Origin: Palleniella intestinalis
Lineage (GTDB): Bacteria > Bacteroidota > Bacteroidia > Bacteroidales > Bacteroidaceae
Assembly (NCBI RefSeq): GCF_013166595.1
Contig: NZ_JABKKG010000003.1
Span: 149,408-213,407 of the forward strand
DNA: 64,000 nt
Direction: 5' to 3'
Shown: positions 12,422 through 59,998 of the stretch, piece after piece
Numbering within the stretch: position 1 is the first letter of the stretch
Layout of the letters: the number at the start of each line of letters is the position of its first letter
Notes under the pieces: generated by a model
What the model saw: the letters and a program-made list of their open reading frames with translations, nothing else
What the model was told of the DNA's origin: nothing
Database searches by the model: none
Position numbers and translations under genes: made by a program

Positions 12422-12472
12422 ATGAAGAGTAGGGCGAGGCTTCTCAAAGAGGGGTTTTCCTCTACTCTTCAT
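12422..12472 (+). terminator. Hairpin after tonB
   Basis: The 11-bp stem ATGAAGAGTAG/CTACTCTTCAT (12422-12432 with 12462-12472) has a weak T-tract. The rest of the gap to 12759 shows no gene, promoter or repeat that I can support. Confidence 0.65.
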
Positions 12473-15439: not shown

Positions 15440-15601
15440 CAGTTATGCAGAGCGGCAGCCTCTTTCCTTATGCAGCAGTTACGGCGCAGGCTTTGGCATC
15501 TCGTTGCATTGTGAGAACTGTATAGTAATTCCATGGAGTATGATATTTTCTCTGTATAGATGTCTCCTCTACAAAACAATGAGATTATAAGTGGCAAAAT
15601 G

Positions 15602-15680
15602 AAAGATAACACTTTACCGTGCGAAGGGTTACCTTTGACAGTACAAAACGTTACCTTTCACCAAGTAAAGCGTTACCTTC
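15602..15680 (-). repeat. Dispersed phased palindrome array, copy B (reverse orientation)
   Basis: Cores start at 15602 (AAAGATAACACTTT), 15623 (GAAGGGTTACCTTT), 15645 (AAAACGTTACCTTT) and 15667 (AAAGCGTTACCTTC), 21-22 bp apart. Read on the minus strand, this copy has the same flank as copies A and E (a CAAC...GTTAAAA block at about 15698-15714). It occupies the centre of the 15440-15899 gap, which has no gene. Confidence 0.85.
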
Positions 15681-15899
15681 CGCCAAATCAATGATGTTTT
15701 AACATTCATTGTTGTTTGAGTTTAGGAAAATGCCTGTATATGTGACATTTTGAAAGTAATTGTCATGTTTGGCTTACATATAGGAATTTGTGCTAACTGT
15801 ACGATAGATGCACTTACATCCAATCCACGCACGATAAGGTTCAAATGTAGAATAATTTGCATGACTACTGATAACATTACAATTACAAACTGACACTCT

Positions 15900-41276: not shown

Positions 41277-41382
41277 GTTTGTAAATCATTGTTTTCGCGA
41301 TACCCATTTTAAGCTTCGGATGCCAAACAAAAATATATTATTCTAACAGATTGAAAAACAGAAGGATAGAGACGGGGTGACG

Positions 41383-41485
41383 AAAGGTAACACTTTACAT
41401 TGCAAAGTGTTACCTTTCGCTTGGTAAAGTGTTACCTTTTACAGTGTCAAGTGTTACCTTTCGCCCGATGAAGTGTGTCACCTTC
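41383..41485 (+). repeat. Dispersed phased palindrome array, copy D (five cores)
   Basis: Cores start at 41383 (AAAGGTAACACTTT), 41404 and 41426 (both AAAGTGTTACCTTT), 41448 (CAAGTGTTACCTTT) and 41470 (GAAGTGTGTCACCTT), spaced 21, 22, 22 and 22 bp. The first is the exact reverse complement of the second and third. This is the best-preserved copy. Confidence 0.9.
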
Positions 41486-41623: not shown

Positions 41624-41655
41624 TTTGGATATTAATGAAATAAAAGTTAACTTTG
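41624..41655 (+). promoter_or_regulatory. Promoter of the tubulin-operon leader
   Basis: TTTG (41624-41627), N20 and TAACTTTG (41648-41655) form a full consensus. It is the only clear promoter between xth and the operon start at 42158. Confidence 0.88.
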
Positions 41656-42157: not shown

Positions 42158-42727
42158 ATGGGTGCATTGTTTGATATCATGTATTATGCCATTGGTAGCT
42201 TCTTTTTAGGAGTTATCCTCACGTTGTTAGGCATGATTCTTATGTTTTTTCTTGTGAAGTCTTGGCTTAAGAATGCAGAGTTCACTCTTGCAAGTTACAT
42301 TGTAGGAGGCGTCCTGTTCTTTTTCCTTGCGTTTCAGACAGTTCTTCTTTGTGGTGCTGTAACGATAAAGTCGTATGTCGGTGATGTGGAACTCTATGTA
42401 AACAATTTGGTTTCAGGACTATCACAATCGGCAGTGTTGTCAAGTCAGGATAGCCAGGAGATACTTGAAAGCATCAGTAATGAATTCCCGCTTGTCGGCT
42501 ACTATGTCGATATTGCAGATTTCAGTGGGCATACTCCGCTTACAATTGCTGCATCTATGGCTGAGGAGTTGGGCAGCTATATGAATTGGTATATTCTGAG
42601 GCGATTGTTATGGATGTTGCTGTTCATTGCCATAGGCGCATTTGCTGTGATTAAGACAATGGACAAAAGCATGAAATATACGCCAAAGCGTGGCAGCACA
42701 ACTAACAGGTATGTGTATGACGACTAA
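42158..42727 (+). CDS. Inner-membrane protein of the tubulin operon
   Basis: The product has 189 aa. Three hydrophobic spans lie at about 8-35 (AIGSFFLGVILTLLGMILMFFLV), 42-70 (IVGGVLFFFLAFQTVLLCGAV) and 147-163 (LLWMLLFIAIGAFAVI), with an extramembrane region of about 70 residues between the second and third and a basic Tyr-rich tail of about 20 residues. No known domain recognised. It is the first gene of the operon, 65 nt behind the leader terminator and 52 nt before the tubulin-like gene, so it is a natural candidate for the membrane anchor. Confidence 0.8.
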   Translation: MGALFDIMYYAIGSFFLGVILTLLGMILMFFLVKSWLKNAEFTLASYIVGGVLFFFLAFQTVLLCGAVTIKSYVGDVELYVNNLVSGLSQSAVLSSQDSQEILESISNEFPLVGYYVDIADFSGHTPLTIAASMAEELGSYMNWYILRRLLWMLLFIAIGAFAVIKTMDKSMKYTPKRGSTTNRYVYDD

Positions 42728-42779
42728 CTTTCCAGTAGAAATAAACAAGTAATCAAATAACTTAATAAAAACAATAATT

Positions 42780-45700
42780 ATGTCAAATCATCTTATCATT
42801 GGACTTGGAGGTACAGGTGGAAAAGTTCTCCGTGAATTCCGTAAGCGTGTATACGAGGAATTTCGTAGTAACGACCCTTGCCATGGTGTGTTTTTGGATT
42901 ATGTCTATGTAGATTCGTCGCCTGCCGACCTTAACGACCGTTCCGGTTGGAAGGTAATAGGCAAAAGTGTTCATCTTGGTGAGGCTCAGAAAGTTAACAT
43001 CAATGGCATGAACGCTTCTGTGCTCCAGAATCTTGGAATGTATCCTGGCATCCAGAGCTTTATCAATGGCAATGACAAATCCTTGATGGACAGGCACATG
43101 GGGCCGCTTATCACTGCCGGAATTGGAGGTCAGCGTCGCCGTTTGGGACGCATGTTGCTGGCTAACAACCTTAGTGATTCTGCCAACCAAAGCAATCTGA
43201 ACAATGTGATTCACAATGCCGTGGTACGTTTGCAGAGCGCGTCAGGCGACAATGATGTGACTTTCCACATCTGTGCAGGTTTGGCAGGTGGAACAGGTTC
43301 GGGTTCGATTGTGGATGTCATTGCCCAGATACGAAAGCAATATCCTTATCAGGAGAGCACTCATGCATTCAAGATTCGCCTTTTTGTGTACATGCCTGAG
43401 CGCAATATGGTTTATGCCAACCATGACAGCGGATTCTATCAGGCCAATGGCTATGCTGCTTTGCAGGAACTGAACGCCATCAGTGCAGGTTACTATGCCC
43501 CTGTGGACATTACAGGCGAGAAGGATGTCTACACTCAGGAAGTAAGGAAACTTATGGAGAGGCAGGAATCTTTTGAGGCTGCCTACATTTACAGTAATGT
43601 GAATGAAGCCGGCAAGATGCTTGACTTGAGCCATGGACTTCCGGCATCTGTAGCTGATTTCATGTTCCAGACCATCGTTGTCGCCAACATGACAGGCGGC
43701 GCAGGAAAGATGGCAAGGCTTGTGGGATGCGAGAATGACGGTGCCGGTCCTGAGCAGGATCAAAGCGGTGCTAAGAACAGAAGCCGTAAATTCCTGTCAT
43801 TCGGTATCAGCCGCATAGAGTACCCTGAGTCAGAAATCAATGAGTATATGGTTTATAACTATGCCATCCAGGCTGCACGTCAGCTCACATACGACATGTG
43901 GCAGGAGGGTATAGGCTATGGTGAACGTTCCATAGAAGAGGTTGGTGCCGGATTCTTGGATGAAATCAAGAACCCAACAAACAGAGAGCGCTTCAAATTG
44001 GCGAACTCTTATATCACCTTAGGACGCCCTATCATTGAGTCTTCCTCAACAAAACGGTGGAAAGACCTGACTACCACATGGGAAGACCGCACACAGCAGG
44101 ATGCCGGTCTGGTGCAGTCGCAATATGAAAAGAAACAGTGGTTTGCTGAGTTTACCACATTGATAGACGCTTATTATGCCGATGGATTCCGTTCCCATGG
44201 TGTAGTGAAGTTCTATGATATACAGCGTCAGGAAGTGAAAGCCTACGCCCGCAACATCCGTAGGGTCATTGAGAAAATTCTTTTTGATGAATGGACAAGC
44301 GGTGGAAAAGATAGCAAAAGCATATTGGCGATAGAGCGTTATGCACAGTTGCTGCGAGCGGACTGTAATGACCGTATTGCTACTTTTAAGCGGCAAATCG
44401 GAAATATGGAGGCGGAACTTGAAGAACATTCTGCTGCTGTCAAGGCTGCTGATACCGCTTGGAATAACATAGGCTGGCTTAAGGATGCGCTTACAAATGC
44501 GTCATCAAAGGTTTTTGCACAATACAAGACTGCAAAATGCAACTATTACACAACATCCACGCGCATTCAGGCTTACCTCTATGGCATAACCCTCCTGCAA
44601 GAGATTATTGTGGAATTGGGCAACATGATAGAGGGAGTGCAGGCGTTTAAGAATGAACTGAACGAAATCTTGTCACAGGTGGTTGTTCAGGCAGGCACGA
44701 AATGCCAGGTGAATGCTGTTCAGGATGATGCTATCATCAAGAAGTATGACCCGGAGAAAATACAGCAGTTGGGCAAATTGTATGCAACAAACTTTGAGTA
44801 TCAAAGTGGTAATGCTGCCGAGATTCGTGCAAAAATGGTAGCGAACTTAGGCGAGGATGGTGAACATACATTTGCTAATCTGTATGATTCCATTGACCAG
44901 GAGACGGCTATGGGAATCATTTTGGATGTCTGCACAAAGAACGCCCATGCCGCAATGGATGATTCAGCAAAGAATGACCCGATGATGAAAATGGTAGGAG
45001 TGAACATCCTTGACAAACTTAAGGTGGAATTGAACACAGAGGAAAAGATAGAGGCGTTTGTTAAGTCGTGTGTCAATTGGGCGCGTTCCTATGTACAGTT
45101 CAATCCGGAGGAGACAGGCAAGGTCATTGCAGGCAATTCGGGTAAGATGATGTCTATGGTACAGGTGGCTCTGCCAAAGGCTGAAAGTGACTCCACAGAG
45201 GCTTTCCGAAACAAACTCCTTGATGCCTTTGTGCAGAATGTTCCTGGATTTGTTCCTAACCTGGACACTGACTTGTCAATCAACTATAAGTCGAACCAAA
45301 TGGTTGTGGTGTGTGCTAACGCCGGTTTCCCACTGCGCTATCTGGAGAACATGAAGACTTTGAAACAGAAATATGACCAACTGTTAGCTTCTCCTGAAGG
45401 AGAGTTGAACAAGATGGTGCTTCATACAGCAAGTTTTGCAAAGCCTCTTCCATCGCTCTTTGAACAAAGTGCGGTAGACTTGATGGAGAAGGCAAAGCGT
45501 CAGTTGATGTTGGCATTTGCATTTCAGATTGTCAAGCAGCACCAAGATCCTGTCACAGGGGAAAGTTTCTATGCACTGCGTGTGCCTGACGGAGACTTTG
45601 GTGATAGCTGGGTTAAACTGGCAAAAGATTTCAAGAGCTGCTTGGAGGCACTGTCACAAAACTTCAAGAACTACACACTTGTGGAAGAACAGGTTGCAGC

Positions 45701-45881
45701 AGAATTGAAAATCCAGGCTCGCAGCAATGAGCAGAAAGCAAACATGCGCAAGGCTGTTGGTGCTGTTGTTAAGCAAGTGATATTGCCGACAATGTGTGAG
45801 AACAATGAGTTTGACCCAACATACCTCAAATACAGAGATTTGGCAAAAGACATCTTCAATATGGAACTGAAAGAACTTTAA
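42780..45881 (+). CDS. Large tubulin/FtsZ-superfamily protein (Tubulin_2-like)
   Basis: The product has 1033 aa. The N-terminus LIIGLGGTGGKVLREFRKR is the nucleotide-binding start of the tubulin/FtsZ fold, and CAGLAGGTGSGSIVD at about 165-180 is the tubulin signature (GGGTGSG type) that holds the GTP phosphates. The GTPase-like part covers roughly residues 1-420. The rest is helical, with a probable coiled coil at about 525-640. It is far larger than FtsZ (about 380 aa) and has no signal peptide or membrane span, so it is cytoplasmic. It resembles the FtsZ-like family (Pfam Tubulin_2) that Makarova and Koonin linked to membrane remodelling. A T7 catalytic loop was not identified by eye. Confidence 0.85.
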   Translation: MSNHLIIGLGGTGGKVLREFRKRVYEEFRSNDPCHGVFLDYVYVDSSPADLNDRSGWKVIGKSVHLGEAQKVNINGMNASVLQNLGMYPGIQSFINGNDKSLMDRHMGPLITAGIGGQRRRLGRMLLANNLSDSANQSNLNNVIHNAVVRLQSASGDNDVTFHICAGLAGGTGSGSIVDVIAQIRKQYPYQESTHAFKIRLFVYMPERNMVYANHDSGFYQANGYAALQELNAISAGYYAPVDITGEKDVYTQEVRKLMERQESFEAAYIYSNVNEAGKMLDLSHGLPASVADFMFQTIVVANMTGGAGKMARLVGCENDGAGPEQDQSGAKNRSRKFLSFGISRIEYPESEINEYMVYNYAIQAARQLTYDMWQEGIGYGERSIEEVGAGFLDEIKNPTNRERFKLANSYITLGRPIIESSSTKRWKDLTTTWEDRTQQDAGLVQSQYEKKQWFAEFTTLIDAYYADGFRSHGVVKFYDIQRQEVKAYARNIRRVIEKILFDEWTSGGKDSKSILAIERYAQLLRADCNDRIATFKRQIGNMEAELEEHSAAVKAADTAWNNIGWLKDALTNASSKVFAQYKTAKCNYYTTSTRIQAYLYGITLLQEIIVELGNMIEGVQAFKNELNEILSQVVVQAGTKCQVNAVQDDAIIKKYDPEKIQQLGKLYATNFEYQSGNAAEIRAKMVANLGEDGEHTFANLYDSIDQETAMGIILDVCTKNAHAAMDDSAKNDPMMKMVGVNILDKLKVELNTEEKIEAFVKSCVNWARSYVQFNPEETGKVIAGNSGKMMSMVQVALPKAESDSTEAFRNKLLDAFVQNVPGFVPNLDTDLSINYKSNQMVVVCANAGFPLRYLENMKTLKQKYDQLLASPEGELNKMVLHTASFAKPLPSLFEQSAVDLMEKAKRQLMLAFAFQIVKQHQDPVTGESFYALRVPDGDFGDSWVKLAKDFKSCLEALSQNFKNYTLVEEQVAAELKIQARSNEQKANMRKAVGAVVKQVILPTMCENNEFDPTYLKYRDLAKDIFNMELKEL

Positions 45882-45907
45882 TAGCAACAAAAAAACTGAA
45901 ATACAAA

Positions 45908-46531
45908 ATGGCAAAGATAAAAGGACTGTGTCACAATGATGATTGTGACTTGGCGGCAGAAAGAGTTATCCAAGAGGTAGAGAAATCCAACTTTGTGTGT
46001 GAGGAATGTGGCAAACCGTTGATTCCATTCGGCAACACATCCACAAAACCTAAGAACGGCTGGCAAAAGAATGTAGCCATTGGTGTTGCTGCATTGGCAG
46101 TGCTTGGTGGCGGTGGCTTCGCCCTTTCCCAAATGGGTGGCGGTGAGGAAAAGACTCCGGAGGCAGTTAATAAAGTTGATACAGCCAAAGTTGAACCGGT
46201 AAAAGCCGATACAGCTAAGGTTGAACCTGTCTCCGAACCTGTGAAGCCGGAGACGGAGAAAAAGGAGGAGACAAAGCCTGCACCGGAGAAAACACAGCCT
46301 GCTGCCCCTAAAGGCCCGTCTGTATCGTGGGGCAAATATACCGGTCCTGCTAACGGACTTGGTGGCACTATACGTGTGACAAAGTCATACTCTCTTGACC
46401 TGAACAATATGGATGGCGATGTCCTTGAACTTAATCCGGGTGATGAGATACAGAACACACAGTTCAAGAACGGACAGCTGCGCGGAGGTGTATGGGTGCA
46501 TGGCGGTAAGCGCAGGTTCTTCAACAGATAA
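45908..46531 (+). CDS. Zinc-ribbon / single-TM / Pro-rich linker protein
   Basis: The product has 207 aa in four parts: an N-terminal zinc ribbon with Cys8, Cys13, Cys31 and Cys34; a basic stretch and membrane span at about 54-76 (VAIGVAALAVLGGGGFAL); a Lys/Pro/Glu linker with a repeated unit (VDTAKVEPV, ADTAKVEPV) to about 135; and a C-terminal domain GKYTGPANGLGGTIRVTKS...FKNGQLRGGVWVHGGKRRFF with MORN-like Gly/Trp pattern. Topology is ribbon inside, C-terminal domain outside, which would connect the cytoplasmic tubulin-like protein with the exported partners. It follows the tubulin gene by 26 nt. Confidence 0.82.
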   Translation: MAKIKGLCHNDDCDLAAERVIQEVEKSNFVCEECGKPLIPFGNTSTKPKNGWQKNVAIGVAALAVLGGGGFALSQMGGGEEKTPEAVNKVDTAKVEPVKADTAKVEPVSEPVKPETEKKEETKPAPEKTQPAAPKGPSVSWGKYTGPANGLGGTIRVTKSYSLDLNNMDGDVLELNPGDEIQNTQFKNGQLRGGVWVHGGKRRFFNR

Positions 46532-46537
46532 TCCTCG

Positions 46538-47692
46538 ATGCTGATGGCACAGCCATTTATGATAATAAAGCGTTTGTTGGCATTCCTTGTCTTGGGGATG
46601 CTGGCAAACGTATGCTCTTTTGCTGCTTCAGGATTCCGCTCCAATCTCTTGCAGGAAATGGCGGTGGTGTCGGGCATAAAACCTCAGATTGATAAACTTA
46701 CGGACGGCTGTTATTATGATGTGTTCTCTTATAAGAACCGTCCGCTGACAGTGGTTGTGGACAATGATGAGGTTGTGCATGTCGGTTACACAATCTTTTC
46801 TCCAATGCAGAGGGAGTTTGTTGGCAGAGATATTGCTGATTTTATTGAAAGGTATTGGCTGTCAACTGATTTGCCATTGAAACGTTTGAAGACAGTAGAG
46901 CAACAAATGCGTGAGGACAGAGTCGTTTTTTCCAAAGGCTCTATGTCTGTAATTGCCAAGTTGCAAGGAGATTCAACTTTGTCTGTGCAGACATTAATGG
47001 ATTTTGAGAGGCGTTATGACATTACTTGGAAGAAAGGCGATGTTACAGTGTGTGCATTGAGCTTCCCTGTCGATAATGAATTGCTCAGTGGCAGAAGCCT
47101 TATCGAGAATGACCAAAGGTTGGCTGATGACATTCAACGTGCAAGACAGATTCAGCCCTCGAAGGACATTACCGTAAATGGCGACATGTTGCAACATTCT
47201 CAGGAACATGGATATTATGTGCTTCCGGGTGAAAGCTATTACATGGATTCGCTTACAGGCAACCGTTATTTCCATAGGGACAAGAAGAATAGACAGTTCC
47301 ACTTGCTGAATACTCCTGAATATGGGTTTGAAACCATAGCGAACATGTTGACAGGCACAGACTTGCCTCAGGCAGAGAACTATGCTCTTACGCTTCGGCA
47401 GCAGACCTATAATTACCAACAGAAGATTGTCACGACTTCCTTAAGGCAATATGTCTCGTTTTGCCTGCAGAGCGGTTGCACTCCTTATGTGGGGCTTATA
47501 AGTGAGACGGGCAACATCGTGGAGGTTGAACTTGTGATGCGTAATGTCGCGTTGGGATATGTGCATGTCGCAAAACTGACATTCGACACCTCACAAATGG
47601 GTGAGGGCAGGGGAACAGTGTCCGGACGACTGAACGCGTATGTTCCGACTGCCAATGTCAAGAATCTGTTCAAAGACTTAAAAACAAAATGA
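46538..47692 (+). CDS. Exported protein of unknown fold (tubulin operon)
   Basis: Starts are possible at 46538, 46544 or 46559; the last (MIIKRLLAFLVLGMLANVCS) gives the most usual signal peptide, cleaved near CSFAAS. The mature part, about 350 aa, is mixed alpha/beta with no Cys pairs or recognisable catalytic motif. Near the C-terminus GNIVEVELVMRNVALGYVHVAKLTF looks like a beta-sandwich edge. I do not recognise it. It sits 6 nt after the zinc-ribbon gene and 7 nt before the LPP20-like gene. Confidence 0.78.
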   Translation: MLMAQPFMIIKRLLAFLVLGMLANVCSFAASGFRSNLLQEMAVVSGIKPQIDKLTDGCYYDVFSYKNRPLTVVVDNDEVVHVGYTIFSPMQREFVGRDIADFIERYWLSTDLPLKRLKTVEQQMREDRVVFSKGSMSVIAKLQGDSTLSVQTLMDFERRYDITWKKGDVTVCALSFPVDNELLSGRSLIENDQRLADDIQRARQIQPSKDITVNGDMLQHSQEHGYYVLPGESYYMDSLTGNRYFHRDKKNRQFHLLNTPEYGFETIANMLTGTDLPQAENYALTLRQQTYNYQQKIVTTSLRQYVSFCLQSGCTPYVGLISETGNIVEVELVMRNVALGYVHVAKLTFDTSQMGEGRGTVSGRLNAYVPTANVKNLFKDLKTK

Positions 47693-47699
47693 AAGAGTA

Positions 47700-48509
47700 A
47701 TGAAAAAGATATTTTTATGTTTGGTTGCATTGCTGACGTTTTTCCCAAACCTTTCCATCGATGCTATGGCACAGGAAGGGGAGTCCCCTTCGAAGACTAT
47801 CAATAAGATAAAGCGGGACGGCAGCTATGTTTATGCGGAAGCTACTGCAAAGACAAGGGAAGAAGCTGCTGAGGCTGCAAAACAGTTGCTGTTGATAGAG
47901 ATTAGTCAGTATGTGGCAACAAAGAAGAAGTTCTCAGGAGCCGACCAGGTGCTTATCAAGGACATGCAGACAGAAAGCCAGTCCATAGAGATGCCGCGTG
48001 GAGACATGACAAGAGTTTTCCTGTATGTAAAGAAAAATGACCTTATTGCCGCTGAAACTGTTGAGGCTGTCAATCAGAAAACGCTCAATGCTATCACACC
48101 GCGACCTGAACCCAAGAAGGTGAAAGAGGAAAAGAAAGCTGCTCCTGCACGTAAGGAAGAGGTGGCAGAAACCGTAACTCATAAGGTGTTGACGGTGAAT
48201 GACCCTTCATTGAAGGACTGGCAGAAGAAACTTGTACAGGATGTGATGGACAGACAGGAATTCCATAAGGTCAAATTGGCTCTCAATAAGTACAAGTCAC
48301 AATACAAGGTTAAACGCCTTGGCAGCAATGAAACATCTTGTCCAAATCCAAGCGAAGCGTTTTACGTGGTGTTTGGGAACGGTGGGAGCATCACACAGTT
48401 CATAAGTGCCGATACAGGCTCAGGGCGTATAGACTACGTGTCAGGCAAGTCGGCTGATGCAAGGGGTATAGAGTCAAAAAAGCATGTATGGTTTACGCTT
48501 TCTAAATAA
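47700..48509 (+). CDS. Exported LPP20-like protein
   Basis: The product has 269 aa with a signal peptide to about residue 25 (SIDAMAQ). Residues 38-120 (GSYVYAEATAKTREEAAEAAKQLLLIEISQYV) follow the pattern of the LPP20/lipoprotein-20-like domain, often found on outer-membrane-associated proteins. A charged Lys/Glu/Ala linker of about 40 residues precedes a C-terminal domain with FHKVKLALNKYKSQYKVKRLG and AFYVVFGNGGSITQFISAD. Probably a periplasmic or outer-membrane-facing partner in the operon. Confidence 0.75.
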   Translation: MKKIFLCLVALLTFFPNLSIDAMAQEGESPSKTINKIKRDGSYVYAEATAKTREEAAEAAKQLLLIEISQYVATKKKFSGADQVLIKDMQTESQSIEMPRGDMTRVFLYVKKNDLIAAETVEAVNQKTLNAITPRPEPKKVKEEKKAAPARKEEVAETVTHKVLTVNDPSLKDWQKKLVQDVMDRQEFHKVKLALNKYKSQYKVKRLGSNETSCPNPSEAFYVVFGNGGSITQFISADTGSGRIDYVSGKSADARGIESKKHVWFTLSK

Positions 48510-48526
48510 ACAAAACTTATATAACA

Positions 48527-49498
48527 ATGAAAAAACTTATATATTTATTTCTCTTTTCACTTGTCTTCTGTGGCAGTGTGCATGCGCAGAATCATGTTGC
48601 TTTTGAAATAGACAAGAATGGTGGAGTCGCTTCCGATATGCCTGTCTCCATGATAGAGACAAATACGGCACGGCTGTTGACTGCCATTAATAATGCTGAG
48701 GCTGCAAAATCAAAGGAGCTGGACTTCTCCGGCATCAACATGACGGATGATGCAAAGAACAGTTTGGCTCAGATGTGGGCGAATGTTCATTTCAAAGTCA
48801 TGGATGATGATATTTTCCAGAAGTGCATATCACTGAAAGCCAATGGGCGTGTGCGTGGCTATGAGGTGGCAAACATCGCCATTGAGATGATTCCTATGAA
48901 TGACGAATATAAAGAGAGCCGCACTCAGGAGATAACCATCAGCTACAACAAGGGTGGAACGATTGATGACATTGTGATTTCAATGGGCAAGCATCAGTAC
49001 ACATCGTTGATGAAAGGTGCGGTGACACTTGATGACTACGACCGCCGCATGCAGATTCTACATTATGTGGAGCAGTTCCGCACGGCTTACTGCCAGAAGG
49101 ATATGACTTTCCTTGACAATGTCTTCAGCGACGACGCACTTATCATAACCGGCAAGCGCACGATGAACAGAGTAAAGGATGGGCGTGGCATGGTTGCCAA
49201 GACTGAATACACCAAGCAGTCAAAGGCGGATTATCTTGCAGGGCTTGCCAAGGCATTCAAAAAAAACAAATACATCAATGTGAAGTTTGATGAAATCGAG
49301 GTTGAGAACAATCCTTTGCATACTCACATGTACGGAGTGACATTGAAACAGAAATGGAACTCTTCCACATACAGTGATGAAGGCATTGTCTTCCTCTTAT
49401 GGGATTTCTCCAACGAGGAAGCTCCGAAGATTTATGTGCGTACATGGCAGTATCTGGACGATCCAAACAGGTTCAAGACAACTGATTTCGAATTCTAA
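48527..49498 (+). CDS. Exported protein with NTF2/SnoaL-like C-terminal domain
   Basis: The product has 323 aa with a signal peptide to residue 20 (FCGSVHAQ). The N-terminal 170 residues are of unknown fold. Residues 175-315 match an NTF2-like cone: QILHYVEQFRTAYCQKDMTF, LDNVFSDDALIITGKR, YLAGLAKAFKKNKYINVKF, and paired strands GVTLKQKWNSSTYSDEGIVF. In bacteria such domains bind small ligands or peptides. 17-nt gaps on both sides keep it within the operon. Confidence 0.8.
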   Translation: MKKLIYLFLFSLVFCGSVHAQNHVAFEIDKNGGVASDMPVSMIETNTARLLTAINNAEAAKSKELDFSGINMTDDAKNSLAQMWANVHFKVMDDDIFQKCISLKANGRVRGYEVANIAIEMIPMNDEYKESRTQEITISYNKGGTIDDIVISMGKHQYTSLMKGAVTLDDYDRRMQILHYVEQFRTAYCQKDMTFLDNVFSDDALIITGKRTMNRVKDGRGMVAKTEYTKQSKADYLAGLAKAFKKNKYINVKFDEIEVENNPLHTHMYGVTLKQKWNSSTYSDEGIVFLLWDFSNEEAPKIYVRTWQYLDDPNRFKTTDFEF

Positions 49499-49515
49499 CA
49501 AATAAAAGCGATTTT

Positions 49516-50676
49516 ATGAGACACCGATTAGTGTTTTTGCTGGCAACATTCTTCCTTTTAGCCTCTGAGTCCTATGCCCAGTTGAAGGTTTCGACCCCAT
49601 GCTACAAGAAGGAAGGAGACATTTCTGCTAGCACAGAGGCACAAAACAGACCTTCAAAGAATGCTTATGGACAGAATCTTCCGTTTGCCTTGGTTCGCGT
49701 AGGCTTGGCGGAAGAGAATGTAAAGTTTGAGGGAAAGGGCGTCATCGAGAGCGAGTTCCGTGACAATGAGTATTGGGTTAGATTGCTGAGTACGGCAAAG
49801 GAGATGACCATCAAATCCCCACTGCATGAGCCATTGATTTACAGATTCCCCATACAGCTTGAAAACAACGCCACTTATATCATGTCCATAAACAAGGTTT
49901 TAGGAAAGCTGGAAATATCAAGCAATCTTGGTTCAAAAGTCAAAGTCTACATTGACAGCTGTCTGGTAAGCGAAGTGACCCCTTTCGTCTTTGAAGGAGA
50001 CCAGGGGGAGCATGAACTGCTTGTCAAAGCCGATGGTTATGCCGATGAGAAGCGCGCTGTGAAAATCCCTGCCAACGGAACTGTAAAGATAACTGTCAAT
50101 CTTAATGTGGAAGGCTCTCTGAAGGTAGGCAATGTCAGCTATGGAGAGATAGCCGTACGGAATGTTTCATTCTCCATGGGTGACAATAGTTTCTACTATG
50201 GTCGTCCTGTGCATACTGTGCAACTCCGTCCGTTCAACGTTGGCAAGGCAATGGTTTCCGCATCATTATGGAAGAGCGTGATGGGAGAGATTGACGAGAA
50301 CATGATAGGTGCAAACGGTCAGGTTGTCAATGTGACTTACAGCCAATGCCTGGATTTCATTGCGTTGCTGAATGAGAAGACCGGCAAGTCCTATCGCCTG
50401 CCTACTGAGGCAGAGTGGGAGTACTGCGCCAAGAATGCCGGCAAACTTGGCATTGAAGATATGACAAGATGCCGTGAATGGTGTTCGGACTGGTTCGGTC
50501 ATTATGCACAGTCAGGACCTTCGCCACAGGGACCGGCAACCGGCTTCCTGCGTGTTGTCAGAGGAGCAGATGGTCCGGGTACTTATTTTACTGTGGGCAG
50601 TGCCACATGGCGTGGGCAGATGAATCCTGAATCATCTGCCAAGGATGTCTCTTTCCGTTTGGCATCCGATAACTGA
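49516..50676 (+). CDS. Exported PEGA-domain protein with shortened sulfatase-modifying-factor-like domain
   Basis: The product has 386 aa with a signal peptide to about 22 (SESYAQ). A PEGA domain lies at about 135-195 (LGKLEISSNLGSKVKVYIDS, DQGEHELLVKADGYADEKR), and from about 215 an FGE/SUMF1-like fold begins: FSMGDNSFYYGRPVHTVQLRPF, SASLWKSVMGE, YRLPTEAEWEYCAKNAG, REWCSDWFGHY, VVRGADGPG, VSFRLASD. The SUMF part is about 165 residues against 250 or more in full enzymes, so it is probably a binding fold, not a formylglycine-generating enzyme. PEGA domains are usually surface-exposed. Confidence 0.88.
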   Translation: MRHRLVFLLATFFLLASESYAQLKVSTPCYKKEGDISASTEAQNRPSKNAYGQNLPFALVRVGLAEENVKFEGKGVIESEFRDNEYWVRLLSTAKEMTIKSPLHEPLIYRFPIQLENNATYIMSINKVLGKLEISSNLGSKVKVYIDSCLVSEVTPFVFEGDQGEHELLVKADGYADEKRAVKIPANGTVKITVNLNVEGSLKVGNVSYGEIAVRNVSFSMGDNSFYYGRPVHTVQLRPFNVGKAMVSASLWKSVMGEIDENMIGANGQVVNVTYSQCLDFIALLNEKTGKSYRLPTEAEWEYCAKNAGKLGIEDMTRCREWCSDWFGHYAQSGPSPQGPATGFLRVVRGADGPGTYFTVGSATWRGQMNPESSAKDVSFRLASDN

Positions 50677-50706
50677 TAAATTAAAACTACAATTAAAGAA
50701 AAGATT

Positions 50707-52410
50707 ATGAGAGCAAGAGAATTTCTTTTGACAGCATTTGCTGCTTTGGCTGCAATGTCTGCCAATGCACAAGTGGAAAAGGTTTACATGAACCCTGTAC
50801 AGTCTGCTGTCTCTTTGGACAGTAACAAGAAAAACCGTCTGCAGACAAAACTGATTATGGGTATGAGCAAGGCACATACTCTGAAAACGACAAAGGGACA
50901 GACGCTGACTGCCAACGGAAAACTGGCTTCCGACGGATATAAGTATGCACTCAACGTAAATGTTACGGAGGCGTCACACAAGCAGGATGAGGAACTTTTC
51001 TCAAGCAAGAAGAAGGACACCTACACTGCTACGGTGAAGATGAACGTTGCTTTGGTTGACGTTACAAACGGCAAGGAGGTGGCGAGCTCCCTCTTTGAGT
51101 GCTCTGCCAGCAACAAGGACATCAACACAGCCTACTATAAGGCTTTCAATACTGTTGACGAGGACATAATCGACTTCATAGACAACAGTCTTCCTGTCAC
51201 GGCTGAGATGATAGAAATCTATGAAAGCAATGTTGACAAGGAGGATGCCGAAGCTAAAGCAGTGAAGGTCAACAAAGGGGCTGCCGCCGGTGTGCGTCGT
51301 GACATGATGTTCACTGTCTATAAGGAAGTCAACGGCGACAGACAAGAAATCGGCAAGGCGCGTTGTGAGCAGGTGCTCAGTGCCGATGAGTCTTTGCTGA
51401 AGGTTTATGGCAAGGAGGATGGCGACAAGACTGTTGCCGAGTTGTTCAAGAACATGGATGGCTCGTTCAATGTGGTCTTTGTCTCACGCTCCAAAAAACT
51501 ATGGGGAAAGTTGGGCTCCAGTCTGACAAAGGTGTTCAAGAAGGATGAACGCACCAACTACTATGAGCCGGACCTTGACCGTCAGGCAAAACTCAAGGTT
51601 GGACTCATGGGCATCAATGCTGCAAACTCCAGTGTGACAAAGGAAGCCTTGGAACTTCTGGCATCTGAGACTGTGGAAGGCTTGTCAAAGGTGACAACAA
51701 TCGACTTCGTCAAGCAGCTGCATCCTACTCTTGAAGCTGCTCAAAAGGCGGGTCTCGACGGACTGATTAACATCACTTTCGACAAACTTGACCAGACGAC
51801 AAGCAAGACAAAGGAAGGCAAGACAAAGTATGAGTCTCACGCATACATCTCCATCGAGGGAATCAACGTGCACGACGGCTCATGGATAGAGATGACTGAT
51901 GCCGACCAGCCACACTCCTCAATGGAGAATGCTGCAGAAGCTGTGAAGAAGGCTGTGGACGCTATGGATGACCATATCAAGAAATTTGCCGAGGATGTAT
52001 TCCCTGTTGCCGGCAAGGTCATGGAAATCAAGGAGGCAAAAGACTATGTGGACAAGAAATCAAAGAAAAAGAAGGCAGAGGAGGACAATGCCCAGCCTGC
52101 CAAGCAGCGTGGCTCTGTGAAAGTGGCATCCATAAGCATCGGCTCAAATGTCGGAGTGCGCAAGAACATGATGTTTGACATCTACAAGCAGATAAAAGGT
52201 GTCGGTGCGGACTCACGTGTGTTCCTTGGAACAGGAAAAGTCAGCGAGAATCCATCTGCAACCGAGGCTGTAATCAAGATAAAGGGCTCAAAGAAGGGTG
52301 ACGAGGTGATTTATGACATACTGAAGAACGCCACCGACGATTCAATCGAAATTATCGTCATTTCACGTGCCTTTGACGGACTTGGCGGTTTCTTGGACAG
52401 ATTGTTGTAA
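50707..52410 (+). CDS. Exported 567-aa protein with internal duplication (tubulin operon)
   Basis: A signal peptide ends at SANAQ (residue 22). The visible structure is a repeated module. Copy 1 at about 178-265 has LPVTAEMIEIYE, KGAAAGVRRDMMFTVYKEV, QEIGKARCEQVL and NVVFVSRSKK. Copy 2 at about 425-555 has FPVAGKVMEIKE, SIGSNVGVRKNMMFDIYKQI, FLGTGKVSEN and EIIVISRAFD. Copy 2 carries a Lys-rich insert (about 446-464). Between the copies, AKLKVGLMGINAANSSVTKEALELL followed by VDFVKQL-type strands resembles a CsgG-like arrangement, but this is uncertain. Likely a major periplasmic or outer-membrane component. Confidence 0.8.
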   Translation: MRAREFLLTAFAALAAMSANAQVEKVYMNPVQSAVSLDSNKKNRLQTKLIMGMSKAHTLKTTKGQTLTANGKLASDGYKYALNVNVTEASHKQDEELFSSKKKDTYTATVKMNVALVDVTNGKEVASSLFECSASNKDINTAYYKAFNTVDEDIIDFIDNSLPVTAEMIEIYESNVDKEDAEAKAVKVNKGAAAGVRRDMMFTVYKEVNGDRQEIGKARCEQVLSADESLLKVYGKEDGDKTVAELFKNMDGSFNVVFVSRSKKLWGKLGSSLTKVFKKDERTNYYEPDLDRQAKLKVGLMGINAANSSVTKEALELLASETVEGLSKVTTIDFVKQLHPTLEAAQKAGLDGLINITFDKLDQTTSKTKEGKTKYESHAYISIEGINVHDGSWIEMTDADQPHSSMENAAEAVKKAVDAMDDHIKKFAEDVFPVAGKVMEIKEAKDYVDKKSKKKKAEEDNAQPAKQRGSVKVASISIGSNVGVRKNMMFDIYKQIKGVGADSRVFLGTGKVSENPSATEAVIKIKGSKKGDEVIYDILKNATDDSIEIIVISRAFDGLGGFLDRLL

Positions 52411-52426
52411 TATAAAAAAGCAGCTT

Positions 52427-52849
52427 ATGAGATTATTATTTGGAATCCTGTTCGCACTGTCGGTAATGCCCTTGTTCGCTAAAAGTGATGTAGTCTATTT
52501 GGAAAAGGTCGGCAATGGAGGGACACGCGTGTTCTCGGTCGTTGTCCCTGTGATGGACAAAGAGCCTGAGACGATAGACTTGGCGAAACGCACATTGATA
52601 AATGCCTTGCTGTTTGAAGGTGTGGAGAACTACAATGGCGGCTTTCCGCTTGTGTCGAATCCCGAGCATATCTATGCCAAGGAGATGGTTGACCCAAACA
52701 AAGGTCAGTACCGCATCTACAGCAAGGAAATCTATTATGAGAATCGCGACAGCAGATCGTTGGCGTATTTCACCATTGTGCTGAACCATTTCAATTTGCT
52801 GAGGGTGCTGAACATGCGCAAAGCGATGGACACTCCATTTGCGGAGTAA
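52427..52849 (+). CDS. Small exported protein, last gene of the tubulin operon
   Basis: The ATG at 52427 (MRLLFGILFALSVMPLFAKS) gives 140 aa with a clear signal peptide cleaved after LFA. The in-frame extension upstream to 52367 overlaps the preceding gene and is not credible. The mature part of about 120 residues has VYLEKVGNGGTRVFSVVVPV and a central helix LAKRTLINALLFEG. It contains no cysteine or known motif. The operon terminator follows 78 nt later. Confidence 0.8.
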   Translation: MRLLFGILFALSVMPLFAKSDVVYLEKVGNGGTRVFSVVVPVMDKEPETIDLAKRTLINALLFEGVENYNGGFPLVSNPEHIYAKEMVDPNKGQYRIYSKEIYYENRDSRSLAYFTIVLNHFNLLRVLNMRKAMDTPFAE

Positions 52850-52926: not shown

Positions 52927-52968
52927 GGGTAGTAATGAGTTGTGAAAGTCATTACTACCCTTTGTTTT
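52927..52968 (+). terminator. Terminator of the tubulin operon
   Basis: GGGTAGTAATGA (52927-52938) pairs with TCATTACTACCC (52949-52960), then TTTGTTTT. Another stem GTGTGCAG/CTGCACAC (about 52861-52901) precedes it. Confidence 0.88.
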
Positions 52969-53075: not shown

Positions 53076-53154
53076 GAAGCTAACGCTTTGCATTGCAAAA
53101 GGTAACACTTTGCTTGGTGAAAGGTAGCCTTTCGCACTGTAAAAGGTAACCTGT
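53076..53154 (+). repeat. Dispersed phased palindrome array, copy E
   Basis: Cores start at about 53076 (GAAGCTAACGCTTT), 53098 (AAAGGTAACACTTT), 53119 (GAAAGGTAGCCTTT) and 53140 (GTAAAAGGTAACCT), 21-22 bp apart. The flank CAACAAATGTTAAA at 53045-53058 matches copy A. The remainder of the 52969-53316 gap is AT-rich without a supported gene. Confidence 0.85.
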
Positions 53155-53316: not shown

Positions 53317-53324
53317 TAATTTTG
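53317..53324 (+). promoter_or_regulatory. -7 element of the restriction/defence operon
   Basis: TAATTTTG at 53317-53324, 23 nt before the ATG at 53348. No good -33 TTTG. Confidence 0.6.
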
Positions 53325-53347
53325 TGACAAAATTAGAAAGTAAAATT

Positions 53348-56300
53348 ATGAGCAATACTCTTATCGACAACAGTTGTGGCTTTGAACTTATTGAATACTT
53401 GAAAAAATATGTGTCAGACAACAGATGTAATCATATTCGCATAGCTTCCGGTTATTGGGATTTGCCGGGAACAAAACTCATTTACGACGAGCTCCAGGCA
53501 TTTCTGCATCATGGCGGCAGATTGGATTTGTTGATTGGGCAAGAGCCTATGCTGCGCAGTTATCAAATGCGTAACGATTTGTCCAAGGAAGAGAGATTCC
53601 CAGATTTCTATATCAAGAGGGATGTTGATAAACTTTCTGACGAATATAAGCCTGTTGTACATTTACTGCTTGACTATATGAATGAGGACGAGGATAAATC
53701 TCAAGTCAGGATAAGAGTGTATGGACAAGATGGCGAAGAAAAAAGATTCCTTCACGCAAAATGCTATATATTTACCGGAGAAGGCTTGGGCTACGGTATT
53801 GTAGGAAGCTCTAACTTTACTCAAAAAGGATTACAGGACAATGCAGAATTGAACTATCTTGAAACCAGTTCTTTGATTGTCAAAAACGAATCTATAATAG
53901 ACAATCAAATGCCACACCTTTATTGGTTTAACAAGCACTGGGAAGAGAGTATTCCTTGGACTGGTAAATTCATCAAGGAAATCCTCTTGCCTTCCCCGGT
54001 TGGCACAGCCGTACAGAAAGAAAAAAATGAGTTGACGCCATACGAGGTGTATATAAAATATCTACAAACGCAATTCGGTGACATTGCAAATCCTGATGCA
54101 ATTGAGATTCTGAAGTCTTATCTTCCCAAAGGGTTCACATCTCTAAGCTATCAGCTTGATGCTGTGCAACAGTGTTTCTACATTATGCGCCAGCATGGCG
54201 GTTTTATTCTTGGCGATGTTGTAGGACTGGGAAAAACAATTATAGGAGTATTGGTAATCAAAAAATTCCTGAACGAAGCATCCTCACTTGGCAGATTGCC
54301 AAAGGTTCTTGTTGTAGTTCCACCAGCCGTAAAATCATCATGGGAAAAGACTGTTAGTTATTTTGACAAGGAACGTATAGACAAAATAGCACCTTTCATA
54401 ACATTCATAACAACAGGCAGTATTGGAAAGATAATCATGGAATCCGATACCAATGATGCCACTGATGTAGAAGATACAGGCACAGAGGACTTTGAGTCTG
54501 AACTTGCATATGATAATTACGGGATGATTCTCATAGATGAAAGCCATAATTTCCGTAACCGCAGTGCTCAGAAATACAAAGACCTTGACGACCTCATACA
54601 GACGATAGATGCGCGAACCGGTGCTGCACCTTTTATCGGTCTGTTATCTGCCACACCTCAAAACAATACGCCTACCGACATATATAATCAGATTCTGTTC
54701 TTCCAAAGAGAACCAAACAAAAGCAGTCTGCCAAACATTCCCGGCGGAAAGCTTGACAGCTTTATGAGCGAGAAAAGTAAACTCTTTGCCGAACTCAGAA
54801 AAAAGGACACTCCTGAGGCAAAGGCGGAACTGCAACTGTTGGCGGAAGAAATAAGGGATAAGGTACTAAATGAACTGGTTGTCCGCAGAACACGTAAAGA
54901 CATAAAAACATTTTATCAGCAGGACAGCGAGACATTGCGCTTCCCTACGGTGAAAGGTCCGCACAAGCTGGAATACAAGCTGGACAAGCAACTTTGCCAA
55001 CTGTTTGCTGATACTATAGACTACATTGTCGGTGACCCTAAGAACAATCAGAAGTCAAAGATTGGTTACTATCGTTATACAGGCATCACATTCTTCAAAG
55101 ACAAAAAGAACAAGGATCTGTATAAAATCAAAAACCTGACACCTGAAAAGATTGCCGAGCAGTTGGCAAACATCATGCGCATCTTGCTTGTAAAACGACT
55201 TGAAAGCAGTTTCACGGCATTCAAGAAGTCGCTCCATAACCTGCAGCGATACACGCAGAACATGATAGACATGATAAATGCCGATGCAGTGTTCATTTGC
55301 CCGGACTTGGACATCAACGATATAATCGCAAAACACACGACACTGCAAAACGCCATTCCGTTCATAGAGGAAAAAATCAAAGAAAAAGGCGGCAATAACA
55401 GGCGTTTCAATAAGGCTGATTTCAAGGATGAATACTTGGATAATCTGAAAAAAGATAAGGCACTTATCGATGCATTGTGTGAACGATGGGATGAGAATGA
55501 CTATGACCCAAAGCTTGATGTATTCAAAGAGTGTATCAATACCAAACTGTTTAATCCTGAAATCAATAATCCTTCCGGATTTGACAAACCACGGCTTGTG
55601 GTGTTCTCTGAAGCCAAGGACACTGTGGATTCATTGGAACGTGTGCTTAATGCAAAAGGGCATAAGGTCTTAAAAGTCACAGCAGAAAACAGAGTAAAGA
55701 AACAATCCGAGATACAAGAGAACTTCGATGCAAACTCTAAAGTACAGAAAGATGACTACGATGTGATTGTCACAACTGAGGTGCTTGCCGAAGGCGTGAA
55801 CCTTCATCGTGCAAATGTCATTCTGAACTATGATACCCCATGGAATGCAACACGACTGATGCAGCGCATCGGACGTGTGAATCGCATTGGTTCAAAAGAA
55901 GAGTTTGTGCATGTATTCAATTTCTTCCCGTCATACGAAGGCAATGAACAGATAAAACTTGCAGAGATAGCATACGCCAAGTTGCAGGCTTTCCACACTA
56001 TGTTTGGGGAGGACAACAAAGTGTTCACAGAGGCAGAGGAACTGTCAGAAGCCGGATTTCAGCATATTGTAGACGGTGAAGTGTCTCCATTGAGTGAATA
56101 TATACAAGACATGAAGGACTTCCAGAACGAGCAACCTGAAAGATTTAAGTATCTGCAAGGGAAAGAGTTCCTGCACATTGGCGGAACTATTGGCTTCAAG
56201 GACGAGCAACAAAGCCTTGTGGTTATTCATTCAGAAAACAGGGGACTGACAAACATAATCATTGACAAAGACAGCAAAGCATCAGTCGTTGCACCAATCA

Positions 56301-56725
56301 CAGCTATGCAGTTCCTGAAATGCGGCAAGGATGAAAAGTTTTCCAAGAAGCCTATGGACTCGGAAATTGAAAAGCAGTCCATGATGGAATACAGTATGCA
56401 TGTGAATAAGATGCGCACCTCGAAAGATGCTACAGCTGAAGTCAAGAAAGCACAAAAATTCCTTCATGAAACTGTAAAACCAAAACTTATCTCACAAGAA
56501 GCACGTAAGGCATACGGATATGCAGATAAGGCACTACGTGGAAACTCACATGCAGTGGCACGGCAGATATTGAAATTTGCAAAGGTCTATGAAACCCAAG
56601 GCGCATCAATGTTTGGACTGGACAATGATGTGAATGAATGGGTGACATCCGCATTTGGAAGACTTGCAGAACAAGGAAACAAAAAAAATGGAGAAGCAAA
56701 AATTGCACTGACAATAACAAAATAA
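53348..56725 (+). CDS. PLD-nuclease / SNF2-like helicase (restriction-type subunit)
   Basis: The ATG at 53348 gives 1125 aa. The N-terminal phospholipase-D-like domain has FLHAKCYIF (HxK at about 136) with GSSNFTQKGL. The superfamily-2 helicase core follows: DVVGLGKTIIG (Walker A, about 288), VVVPPAVKSSW (Ia), LIDESHNFRN (DExH-type box, about 395), LLSATPQNN (III), TTEVLAEGVNLHRANVILNYD (V) and RLMQRIGRVNRIG (VI, about 838). A helical C-terminal region extends to 1125. The combination nuclease plus translocase next to a methylase fits a restriction subunit. The methylase starts 3 nt after the stop. Confidence 0.9.
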   Translation: MSNTLIDNSCGFELIEYLKKYVSDNRCNHIRIASGYWDLPGTKLIYDELQAFLHHGGRLDLLIGQEPMLRSYQMRNDLSKEERFPDFYIKRDVDKLSDEYKPVVHLLLDYMNEDEDKSQVRIRVYGQDGEEKRFLHAKCYIFTGEGLGYGIVGSSNFTQKGLQDNAELNYLETSSLIVKNESIIDNQMPHLYWFNKHWEESIPWTGKFIKEILLPSPVGTAVQKEKNELTPYEVYIKYLQTQFGDIANPDAIEILKSYLPKGFTSLSYQLDAVQQCFYIMRQHGGFILGDVVGLGKTIIGVLVIKKFLNEASSLGRLPKVLVVVPPAVKSSWEKTVSYFDKERIDKIAPFITFITTGSIGKIIMESDTNDATDVEDTGTEDFESELAYDNYGMILIDESHNFRNRSAQKYKDLDDLIQTIDARTGAAPFIGLLSATPQNNTPTDIYNQILFFQREPNKSSLPNIPGGKLDSFMSEKSKLFAELRKKDTPEAKAELQLLAEEIRDKVLNELVVRRTRKDIKTFYQQDSETLRFPTVKGPHKLEYKLDKQLCQLFADTIDYIVGDPKNNQKSKIGYYRYTGITFFKDKKNKDLYKIKNLTPEKIAEQLANIMRILLVKRLESSFTAFKKSLHNLQRYTQNMIDMINADAVFICPDLDINDIIAKHTTLQNAIPFIEEKIKEKGGNNRRFNKADFKDEYLDNLKKDKALIDALCERWDENDYDPKLDVFKECINTKLFNPEINNPSGFDKPRLVVFSEAKDTVDSLERVLNAKGHKVLKVTAENRVKKQSEIQENFDANSKVQKDDYDVIVTTEVLAEGVNLHRANVILNYDTPWNATRLMQRIGRVNRIGSKEEFVHVFNFFPSYEGNEQIKLAEIAYAKLQAFHTMFGEDNKVFTEAEELSEAGFQHIVDGEVSPLSEYIQDMKDFQNEQPERFKYLQGKEFLHIGGTIGFKDEQQSLVVIHSENRGLTNIIIDKDSKASVVAPITAMQFLKCGKDEKFSKKPMDSEIEKQSMMEYSMHVNKMRTSKDATAEVKKAQKFLHETVKPKLISQEARKAYGYADKALRGNSHAVARQILKFAKVYETQGASMFGLDNDVNEWVTSAFGRLAEQGNKKNGEAKIALTITK

Positions 56726-56728
56726 GAT

Positions 56729-59700: not shown

Positions 59701-59998
59701 ACTGAATTCAAAATTAGTTAATTGGTATTTTAGATGCTTCAGCACAAACAGTAATGTCAATAGTTATGAAATAGAAAACATTCCCTTTCCCAATATTTCC
59801 ATAGAACAGCAACAACCGATAGCAAAACTTGTTGATAGTATTCTTTCTGCTAAGAATTCAGATGCAAATGCAGATACCTCTACATATGAGCATGAAATAG
59901 ACTTACTTGTATATCACCTCTACGGCTTAACTTATAATGAGATGAAAATAATCAATCCAGATACACCAATAACAAAAGAGAAATATAATAATATATGA
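56729..59998 (+). CDS. Eco57I/PglX-like N6-adenine DNA methyltransferase
   Basis: The product has 1089 aa. SAM-binding motif I CDPAIGSGAFPMGI at about 451 and catalytic motif IV IGNPPYFVYEG at about 700 define an N6-adenine (gamma-type) methylase. The preceding PEMLGRVFESLLEDNKDKGAFYTPKEIVQYM is the characteristic helix-plus-GAFYTP entry of the Eco57I/PglX class. The C-terminal 250 residues, with repeated YLRCFQGELNM and LKYILGILNSKLVNWYFR, look like the target-recognition region of type I/IIG enzymes. No PD-(D/E)xK nuclease is obvious in it, so cleavage must come from partners. Stop overlaps the next start as ATGA. Confidence 0.9.
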   Translation: MLKDNLKNIFNSDYPGINTIANEVILPIFKESAEIFQYPESQEIDRYATNANITEIIHFGCIDTNAVGNDPIELFDVSVNSHSKLERSRVNIQRWIRKELANYSHAFIVFHYDEPKGRSWRFSYLHKDTNASSTDAKRYTYLLGKNFSAKTITERFTKLASSKLDDAALKEAFSVQAVSDDFFNGYRDLYADFVQYITGTRYEKVKGKWVEVQKGEPTEEIFAEFKNDKKAVRDYIKKMMGRLTFLYFLQRKGWLNGSYDYMNSLYESSSQKEDFLDAVLEPLFFGVLNTPLEKRMDVFTRNHWDTDLLEEWKGIPYLNGGLFEQSDDDRRTVKFPMEYFDNLFDFFSRYNFTVDENDPNDSEIGIDPEMLGRVFESLLEDNKDKGAFYTPKEIVQYMCKQSIIQYLKTNTEETLYPDIEELINTGFVNQSLQEKGNATMVYNLLCNVKVCDPAIGSGAFPMGILDLLYSTRRHLYDYLEFPEAFNPVEVKKSIIKNNIFGVDIEQGAVDIARLRFWLAILLEETEPSPLPNLDYRIIRGNSLLTTFNDEYLDLSCPSDRKVKINRMKRELFILQNQLYSLNGDKKLECEIAVKHKILDIVGYQLGFHKKSALCGMRTDTEDLFSDQPVLTKAQKKQEEKATQIYHIKQKSINAIDGMLTKLKTPNYSLMDRAQTDINFFDWEIMFSDIFCNGGFDVVIGNPPYFVYEGSHKDEISNLKSKEELKIAFGGKLNAYKLFLAKALNTLVKENGVISYIFQNSFLADKQAATLRKNVLQNNQIIVVDSYPERDSIKKRVFESAKMSVCILTVKHTKNNMPFVVNIWDDKYKSSGITTHFVSSEIESIDPEGFSIPRLRQEHLPLVIKINNINKKTYLRCFQGELNMTIHRNFFSCDTTFPKVLKGASIQRYFWTEDVSQGVNETVDEVAYLKAFPKSEKSSHHAIPRIAMQGMTGANDKIRIVATLIDNNLYLAHSCNYIIPVEGFELKYILGILNSKLVNWYFRCFSTNSNVNSYEIENIPFPNISIEQQQPIAKLVDSILSAKNSDANADTSTYEHEIDLLVYHLYGLTYNEMKIINPDTPITKEKYNNI

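Follow-up and report, generated by a model that had tools for sequence, protein, structure and literature searches.

An FtsZl1-type tubulin homologue in a predicted trans-envelope operon of Palleniella intestinalis

A stretch of 64,000 nucleotides from the gut bacterium Palleniella intestinalis (NCBI RefSeq assembly GCF_013166595.1, contig NZ_JABKKG010000003.1, positions 149,408 to 213,407 of the forward strand), here called the window, contains an operon of nine genes, g1 to g9, one of which (g2) encodes a tubulin-like GTPase homologue (Table 1). We favour, with slightly less than even confidence, the reading that this operon encodes a modular receptor or organiser spanning the cell envelope, whose cytoplasmic part is here the tubulin-like GTPase. 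Because homologous gene blocks place a kinase joined through a transmembrane (TM) segment to a MORN domain in the same position, the tubulin-like protein would fill a slot for signal output or organisation and would not be the motor of a machine dedicated to the outer membrane. An earlier note, made from the sequence alone, had taken the operon for a polymer-driven system spanning the envelope; the envelope-spanning composition stands, but remodelling of the outer membrane by a polymer is not specifically supported. The open reading frames of the window place all nine genes on the + strand between 42158 and 52849 in one block resembling a transcription unit, with intergenic gaps, from g1 to g9, of 52, 26, 6, 7, 17, 17, 30 and 16 nt, within the 6-52 nt that the note had given. 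The start of g9 was taken as the ATG at 52427 (140 aa); a longer GTG frame from 52367 overlaps g8. The products are one Tubulin_2/FtsZl1 protein (g2), two inner-membrane proteins (g1 and g3) and six proteins with N-terminal signal peptides (g4-g9), the division made in the earlier note, and it extends to the families, as nearly all members of every exported family have a hydrophobic N terminus. Judged by the ratio of non-synonymous to synonymous substitution (dN/dS) against Palleniella muris, which is 0.044 for g2 and 0.059-0.212 for the other eight genes, all nine genes are under purifying selection. These values, together with a gene order kept in dozens of loci, argue that the operon is not a chance assembly.

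The membership of g2 in the tubulin/FtsZ superfamily is borne out by profile and model alike. Pfam Tubulin_2 matches residues 5-365 with an E value of 1.7e-50 (172.7 bits against a cut-off of 27), the two motifs pointed out in the earlier note, GLGGTGG and the tubulin signature CAGLAGGTGSGS, lie at residues 8-14 and 165-176, and the T1 and T4 GTP-binding loops are shown by their residues to be intact. The protein is 98% identical to its P. muris counterpart and is the sole Tubulin_2 protein encoded in the 3.5 Mb genome. Two canonical ftsZ genes lie on other contigs than g2 (G000:C13:16249-17214 and G000:C12:292174-293151, both above the TIGR00065 cut-off; estimated contamination 0.03%), and g2 itself is not a TIGR00065 member. 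An AlphaFold2 model built with 65 homologues (mean predicted local distance difference test score, pLDDT, 89; predicted template modelling score 0.74) replaced a poor one built with eight sequences (pLDDT 71). Structural alignment of this model to tubulins and CetZ with VIA-align gave Z scores of 25-26 over 341-364 residues for tubulins and 312 for CetZ, at root mean square deviations mostly of 3.4-3.9 Å, with one row at 5.5. The model thereby confirms, as a prediction, that g2 has a tubulin fold with a GTPase domain and a second domain superposable on tubulin.

The model further indicates how that fold is arranged. As judged by aligned ranges rather than residue-level pairs, the alignment runs over about residues 1..895 of g2, against tubulin chains of about 427 residues. 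Residues 1-375 form the GTPase part, about 376-782 a long helical or coiled-coil stretch with long helices at 515-562 and 574-639, and the C-terminal region beyond about 895 is mainly helical. From these limits the second domain would lie at about residues 783-895, so that the tubulin fold appears to be split into the GTPase part, an insertion of about 400 residues and the second tubulin domain. Residues 783-905 used as a sequence profile against the Protein Data Bank (PDB) found no tubulin, and it is therefore the structural model that carries the second-domain assignment. The split fits with a degenerate tandem paralogue of another species, which aligns to residues 1-872 of g2 only, and with a replaceable region beyond about 900, where two relatives differ, one of them carrying a GYF_2 domain (Pfam). 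Across the 65 homologues the only invariant positions are R124, GGTGSG, P206, N223, E230, E318, P349 and Y865; N319 is kept in 64. In tubulins the catalytic T7 loop stands at the position after helix H7. In g2, E318-N319 follows a helix in the H7 position, which is suggestive of a T7-type catalytic site.

These features bear on the main alternative, namely that the tubulin-like protein forms a GTP-driven polymer at the inner membrane, by which an assembly of the outer membrane or cell surface would be driven or put in position; this is the membrane-remodelling role that Makarova and Koonin (PMC2875224) proposed for FtsZl1 proteins. If the second tubulin domain is kept as predicted, canonical filaments are possible and a tubulin-type protofilament is sterically plausible; the invariant glutamate at the putative T7 position, and the outer-membrane beta-barrel and OmpA-type parts found in relatives, also speak for it. 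Tandem tubulin-like paralogues of 719-861 aa stand beside an intact gene at four loci (L051:7664-9988, L052:7664-9988, L079:7805-9964 and L083:6764-9349). All four are without the T4 loop, and those of L051 and L052 have lost the T1 loop as well; they could possibly be GTPase-dead partners, caps or co-subunits, and this too would suit a polymer. Against this explanation stand the occurrence of the exported block without a tubulin gene and of the tubulin gene without the exported block, both described below, and we consider it rather unlikely.

The operon is conserved as a core with changeable ends. After the tubulin gene, g3 to g6 follow in order in 64 of the 67 Bacteroidales loci with enough downstream sequence, and this order holds down to about 25% tubulin identity; g3 lies directly 3' of the tubulin gene in 71/74 loci. 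These locus maps show co-conservation of g1-g6 as a core and exchange in the last slots, here g7-g9. Two module types occur after g6: PEGA/SUMF-type proteins, which may be joined by g8/g9-like genes and are the type found here, and a pair of proteins of about 500 and 255 aa. On the tubulin tree there are at least 12 switches between the two types. Thus the nine-gene unit described in the earlier note is co-conserved in its core but not in its 3' part. The variable 3' genes, and a g1 that is missing or displaced in 13/74 loci, might be taken to mean a loose cluster of envelope genes without functional coupling to the tubulin-like protein; the persistence of g3-g6 order over such divergence goes far beyond chance linkage, and with the strong purifying selection it leaves this explanation very improbable.

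Outside Bacteroidales the partnership shrinks. In Beta- and Alphaproteobacteria and in other Bacteroidota the tubulin gene is accompanied by g3 alone, or by g3 and a TAXI/NMT1-type binding protein; the minimal pair of tubulin and zinc ribbon-TM gene was found in Accumulibacter, Polaromonas, Comamonas, Sphingomonas, Azospirillum, Siphonobacter and Chitinophagales. The earlier note had named genomes in which the tubulin gene regularly occurs without the exported genes as evidence against its reading, and this is in part what these lineages show. The periplasmic part of g3 also changes among these lineages (MORN, Big_2 or PBP-OmpA). Since only this pair persists, the conserved heart of the system would be a cytoplasmic tubulin homologue and a membrane protein reaching the periplasm with a changeable domain. 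Within Bacteroidales, g3 consists of a zinc ribbon and TM segment, sometimes a Big_2 domain, and then MORN-like repeats. The zinc-ribbon/TM linker proposed in the earlier note is well supported, the TM segment being present in 97/97 homologues and the N-terminal four-cysteine motif in 94/97; MORN is matched in 8/21 (best E 3.5e-5), and a secreted Big_2-MORN protein (L216) supports an extracytoplasmic location of that domain. A similarity of g3 to GltJ (E 0.002) sits in the g3 linker and was discarded as compositional. The other inner-membrane protein, g1, ends in a short acidic C-terminal tail (YDD here, YDDF in many relatives).

The exported block also occurs apart from tubulin. A search of the same genome with g6 found a second copy on another contig, within an operon (L177, G000:C2:81000-100900, at 1861-12736) that has no tubulin gene. 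Its first genes encode a zinc ribbon/FHA protein, a Ser/Thr kinase with FHA, an FHA/trypsin-like protein, a secreted protein and a PP2C phosphatase, and the remaining genes a kinase-TM-MORN protein (TM segment at 335-363), g4, g6 and a tail that bears the signature of an outer-membrane beta-barrel. The g6 family is found in 34/121 family genomes, against 9/101 for Tubulin_2. Among twenty further g6 loci surveyed, a kinase-TM-MORN protein recurs at L217 and a TPR/Sel1-TM-MORN protein with zinc ribbons is found at L208; L209 and L211-L215 carry secreted TPR/Sel1 proteins, and L221-L226 carry g5-g6 fusions with PEGA proteins. One of the secreted Sel1-repeat proteins, adjoining its g4/g6 block, has a caspase-like Peptidase_C14 domain (L215:12202-14046; 1.1e-17), and a tubulin operon similar in kind to ours has a TIR-TM-MORN gene (L093:15931-16926) on its downstream side, at a distance of about 1.1 kb. 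Because the partners of g6 are so varied, the periplasmic block appears to be attached to different cytoplasmic parts, the tubulin-like protein being one of them, and because g4, g6 and tail exist without tubulin, the composition does not require a force-generating polymer.

On this basis we propose the following for the receptor or organiser. Together, g1 and the zinc ribbon of g3 would tether the tubulin-like protein to the inner membrane, and the periplasmic domain of g3 would make contact with g4-g6 and the tail proteins, either at the peptidoglycan or at the outer membrane. The resulting periplasmic complex (the MORN-like part of g3, g4-g6 and the tail) would bind or monitor something there, and its state would be coupled across the membrane to GTP-dependent assembly of the tubulin-like protein, with g3 and g1 transmitting that state to, or anchoring, a tubulin-type assembly inside the cell. 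Several points weigh against the proposal: the topology of g3 is inferred, as are binding, polymerisation, GTP hydrolysis and the direction in which information flows; g5 and the exact tail differ between the tubulin and kinase loci; and the exchange of cytoplasmic partners would be explained just as well if one exported structure had its assembly regulated by tubulin in some loci and by the kinase in others. In a more specific version, which we regard as speculative, the periplasmic block would be a portable receptor and the tubulin GTPase, in the kinase slot, its exchangeable cytoplasmic output. Signals crossing the envelope would then lead to assembly or disassembly of a tubulin-type filament carrying an inserted stalk of 400 residues, and in some species a GTPase-dead tandem paralogue would adjust this response. 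One reviewer of the 2010 paper had suggested a transport or signalling role on the basis of a TRAP-type binding protein in Polaromonas (PMC2875224), and the same association is seen in our loci. The tubulin/receptor-kinase swap on one exported block thus provides a testable hypothesis for the envelope role of FtsZl1, which could be addressed in the culturable gut Bacteroidales P. muris, B. mediterraneensis and B. caecigallinarum, and bacterial tubulin relatives may turn out to be parts that can be exchanged in devices for sensing or organisation across the envelope.

It could also be argued that the operon is a biological-conflict system, for example against phages. The tubulin-like protein would then assemble once the cell is infected, and the exported parts would act on the envelope, either as sensors or by damaging it. 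In favour of this, its carriage is patchy (Tubulin_2 in 5/60 genus genomes and 13/395 genomes of the phylum sample, besides the family figure above), its end modules are swapped, TIR, the secreted caspase-like protein and kinase/PP2C/FHA proteins stand around its relatives, and published GTPase-centred conflict systems include tubulins, zinc ribbons and PEGA/NTF2 domains (PMC7159879). Directly downstream in the window, at 53324-59998, lie a PLD-nuclease/SNF2-like helicase and a type IIG-like restriction-methylation protein. The P. muris sequence is syntenic across the operon (92% nucleotide identity) but only as far as 53156, just past the last gene, and the helicase and methylation genes are absent from the P. 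muris site, which places them outside the operon. A PADLOC scan of the flanks of some 70 loci against distant control regions gave no clear enrichment of defence islands, the near set having somewhat more single hits in what are small samples. The PADLOC models compared with eight of the products (g9 left out) gave only two marginal matches at E 0.002-0.003 and one at 0.05; the DO-GTPase/GAP1/HSP70 core is absent from the nine products in a Pfam search that used no dedicated GAP1 model. Phages and viral contigs carried no such operon and plasmids one, and a mobile-element reading was dropped since no phage, viral or typical plasmid carriage was found. Taken together, we hold a conflict role to be improbable. 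Two of the five carriers in the genus hold a distant FtsZl1 type of about 920 aa (L147:4189-6951 and L148:9008-11773), which is followed by a protein of about 980 aa and has no zinc ribbon-TM gene; vWA partners suspected from MIDAS-like motifs in L142 and L148 gave nothing below 1e-3 in Pfam and are not claimed.

The exported proteins fit their earlier descriptions to differing degrees. The LPP20-like assignment of g5 finds little support by profile (1/18 family members, E 0.036). For g6 the NTF2-like domain is supported (Cds6_C 7e-4, DUF4440 5e-3), g7 does match PEGA (6e-6) and FGE-sulfatase/SUMF (6e-12), and the duplication seen in g8 is a real internal repeat, its family showing a weak similarity to FlgT_C (3/8 relatives, best E 3.4e-3). 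FlgT and LPP20 are outer-membrane ring proteins, and these scattered matches would at most hint at a relationship with them. The two alternative slot-7 proteins, types T1 and PEGA, align with an hhalign probability of 72%, partly over the signal peptide.

As for the flanks, the window has 11 exact matches to the Bacteroidetes-type promoter consensus, where shuffled sequence would give 0.9, and only the one in Table 1 is near the operon. The probable terminator has 15-nt arms (93% complementary), a 4-nt loop and a T-rich tail directly after the stem-loop; a separate terminator scan, whose stem rules may exclude such a stem, missed it. Dispersed intergenic repeats with palindromic units of about 22 nt (AAAGGTAACACTTT-like) occur in the window at 41381-41474, 53077-53150 and near 5417-5588 and 15599-15781; they flank the operon on both sides as well as lying elsewhere, and the P. 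muris synteny break falls at one of them. An Rfam match to MIR814 at 41380-41464 is a chance match to the palindromic repeat. The upstream neighbour of the operon has no close orthologue in the genus genomes without the operon.

Table 1. Features of the operon and its flanks, with positions in the window.
Feature	Position	Strand	Basis
Candidate Bacteroidetes-type promoter, TTTG-N20-TAACTTTG	41624..41655	+	consensus match; ~500 nt upstream of g1
g1: 189-aa inner-membrane protein, three hydrophobic segments	42158..42727	+	precedes tubulin gene in 61/74 Bacteroidales loci
g2: 1033-aa tubulin-superfamily GTPase homologue (FtsZl1 / Pfam Tubulin_2)	42780..45881	+	Pfam, AlphaFold2 model, structural alignment
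Helical/coiled-coil insertion in g2, ~400 residues (about 376-782), limits approximate	43905..45125	+	model secondary structure, aligned range
Predicted second tubulin domain in g2 (about residues 783-895)	45126..45494	+	inferred from model
g3: zinc ribbon (4 Cys), one TM segment, periplasmic MORN-like domain; predicted trans-membrane coupler	45908..46531	+	sequence, linkage
g4: 384-aa exported protein of the conserved block, without a known domain	46538..47692	+	Pfam, locus maps
g5: 269-aa exported protein	47700..48509	+	conserved block member
g6: 323-aa exported protein, C-terminal NTF2-like domain	48527..49498	+	most conserved exported member
g7: exported protein with PEGA and short SUMF (FGE-sulfatase) domains, in an exchangeable slot	49516..50676	+	Pfam, locus maps
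g8: 567-aa exported protein, internally repeated; weak FlgT_C similarity in its family	50707..52410	+	repeat detected
g9: 140-aa exported protein, exchangeable slot	52427..52849	+	locus maps, dN/dS 0.059
Probable terminator: stem-loop then TTTGTTTT	52927..52960	+	stem-loop geometry; sequence read

Few tubulin relatives have diverged as far as the FtsZl1 proteins, and we found no experimental function for them in the papers searched and no solved structure in a 2026 copy of the PDB. Makarova and Koonin (2010, PMC2875224) described them as proteins of about 1000 aa with an N-terminal FtsZ-like domain, a coiled coil and a helical C-terminal region, which coexist with canonical FtsZ and are encoded in operons with membrane, periplasmic and OmpA-type partners; a Bacteroides caccae member is among them. 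With its Tubulin_2 domain containing GGTGSG, coiled coil, helical C terminus and coexisting canonical FtsZ, g2 agrees with this description. In 2010 the T6-H7 elements of FtsZl1 and any similarity of its C-terminal domain were not identifiable (PMC2875224), whereas the model of g2 places a second tubulin domain after the coiled coil and so answers, in prediction, whether FtsZl1 keeps it. The vWA, distinct GTPase and OmpA partners were reported as frequent but not obligatory (PMC2875224), and by Pfam no vWA, P-loop GTPase, kinase or OmpA is found among the nine products. The earlier note was thus right about the absence of vWA and OmpA at this locus, but the Comamonas g3 homologue has the architecture zinc ribbon-TM-PBP_like_2-OmpA, so that g3 would be the counterpart of the known OmpA-bearing partner. 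The present subtype is set apart from the operons of 2010 by the zinc ribbon-TM-periplasmic coupler and the six-gene Bacteroidales core.

The GTPase-centric conflict systems of Kaur et al. (2020, PMC7159879) combine tubulin homologues, zinc ribbons and periplasmic PEGA/NTF2 proteins, sometimes with kinase/PP2C. Our operon presents a similar mixture but is without DO-GTPase, GAP1 and HSP70 (Pfam, with no dedicated GAP1 model). With the kinase operon of the same genome it shares homologous TM-MORN, g4 and g6 in the same order and an exported tail, and differs from it in that the other operon lacks g5 and, in place of tubulin, has a Ser/Thr kinase accompanied by PP2C and FHA proteins. Within the envelope machines of Bacteroidota, g7 shares the SUMF-type fold of GldJ/GldK of the type IX secretion and gliding apparatus; unlike them it scores 17.6 bits against NCBIfam cut-offs of 350 and 458, and the operon has no GldL/M/N-like genes. 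The zinc-ribbon subtype with its six-gene core, the split-fold model and the receptor-kinase swap were not found in the open-access papers searched. The earlier note knew of no described system with such a composition; the tubulin belongs to the known FtsZl1 family, and the papers searched gave no description of an operon with exactly these genes.

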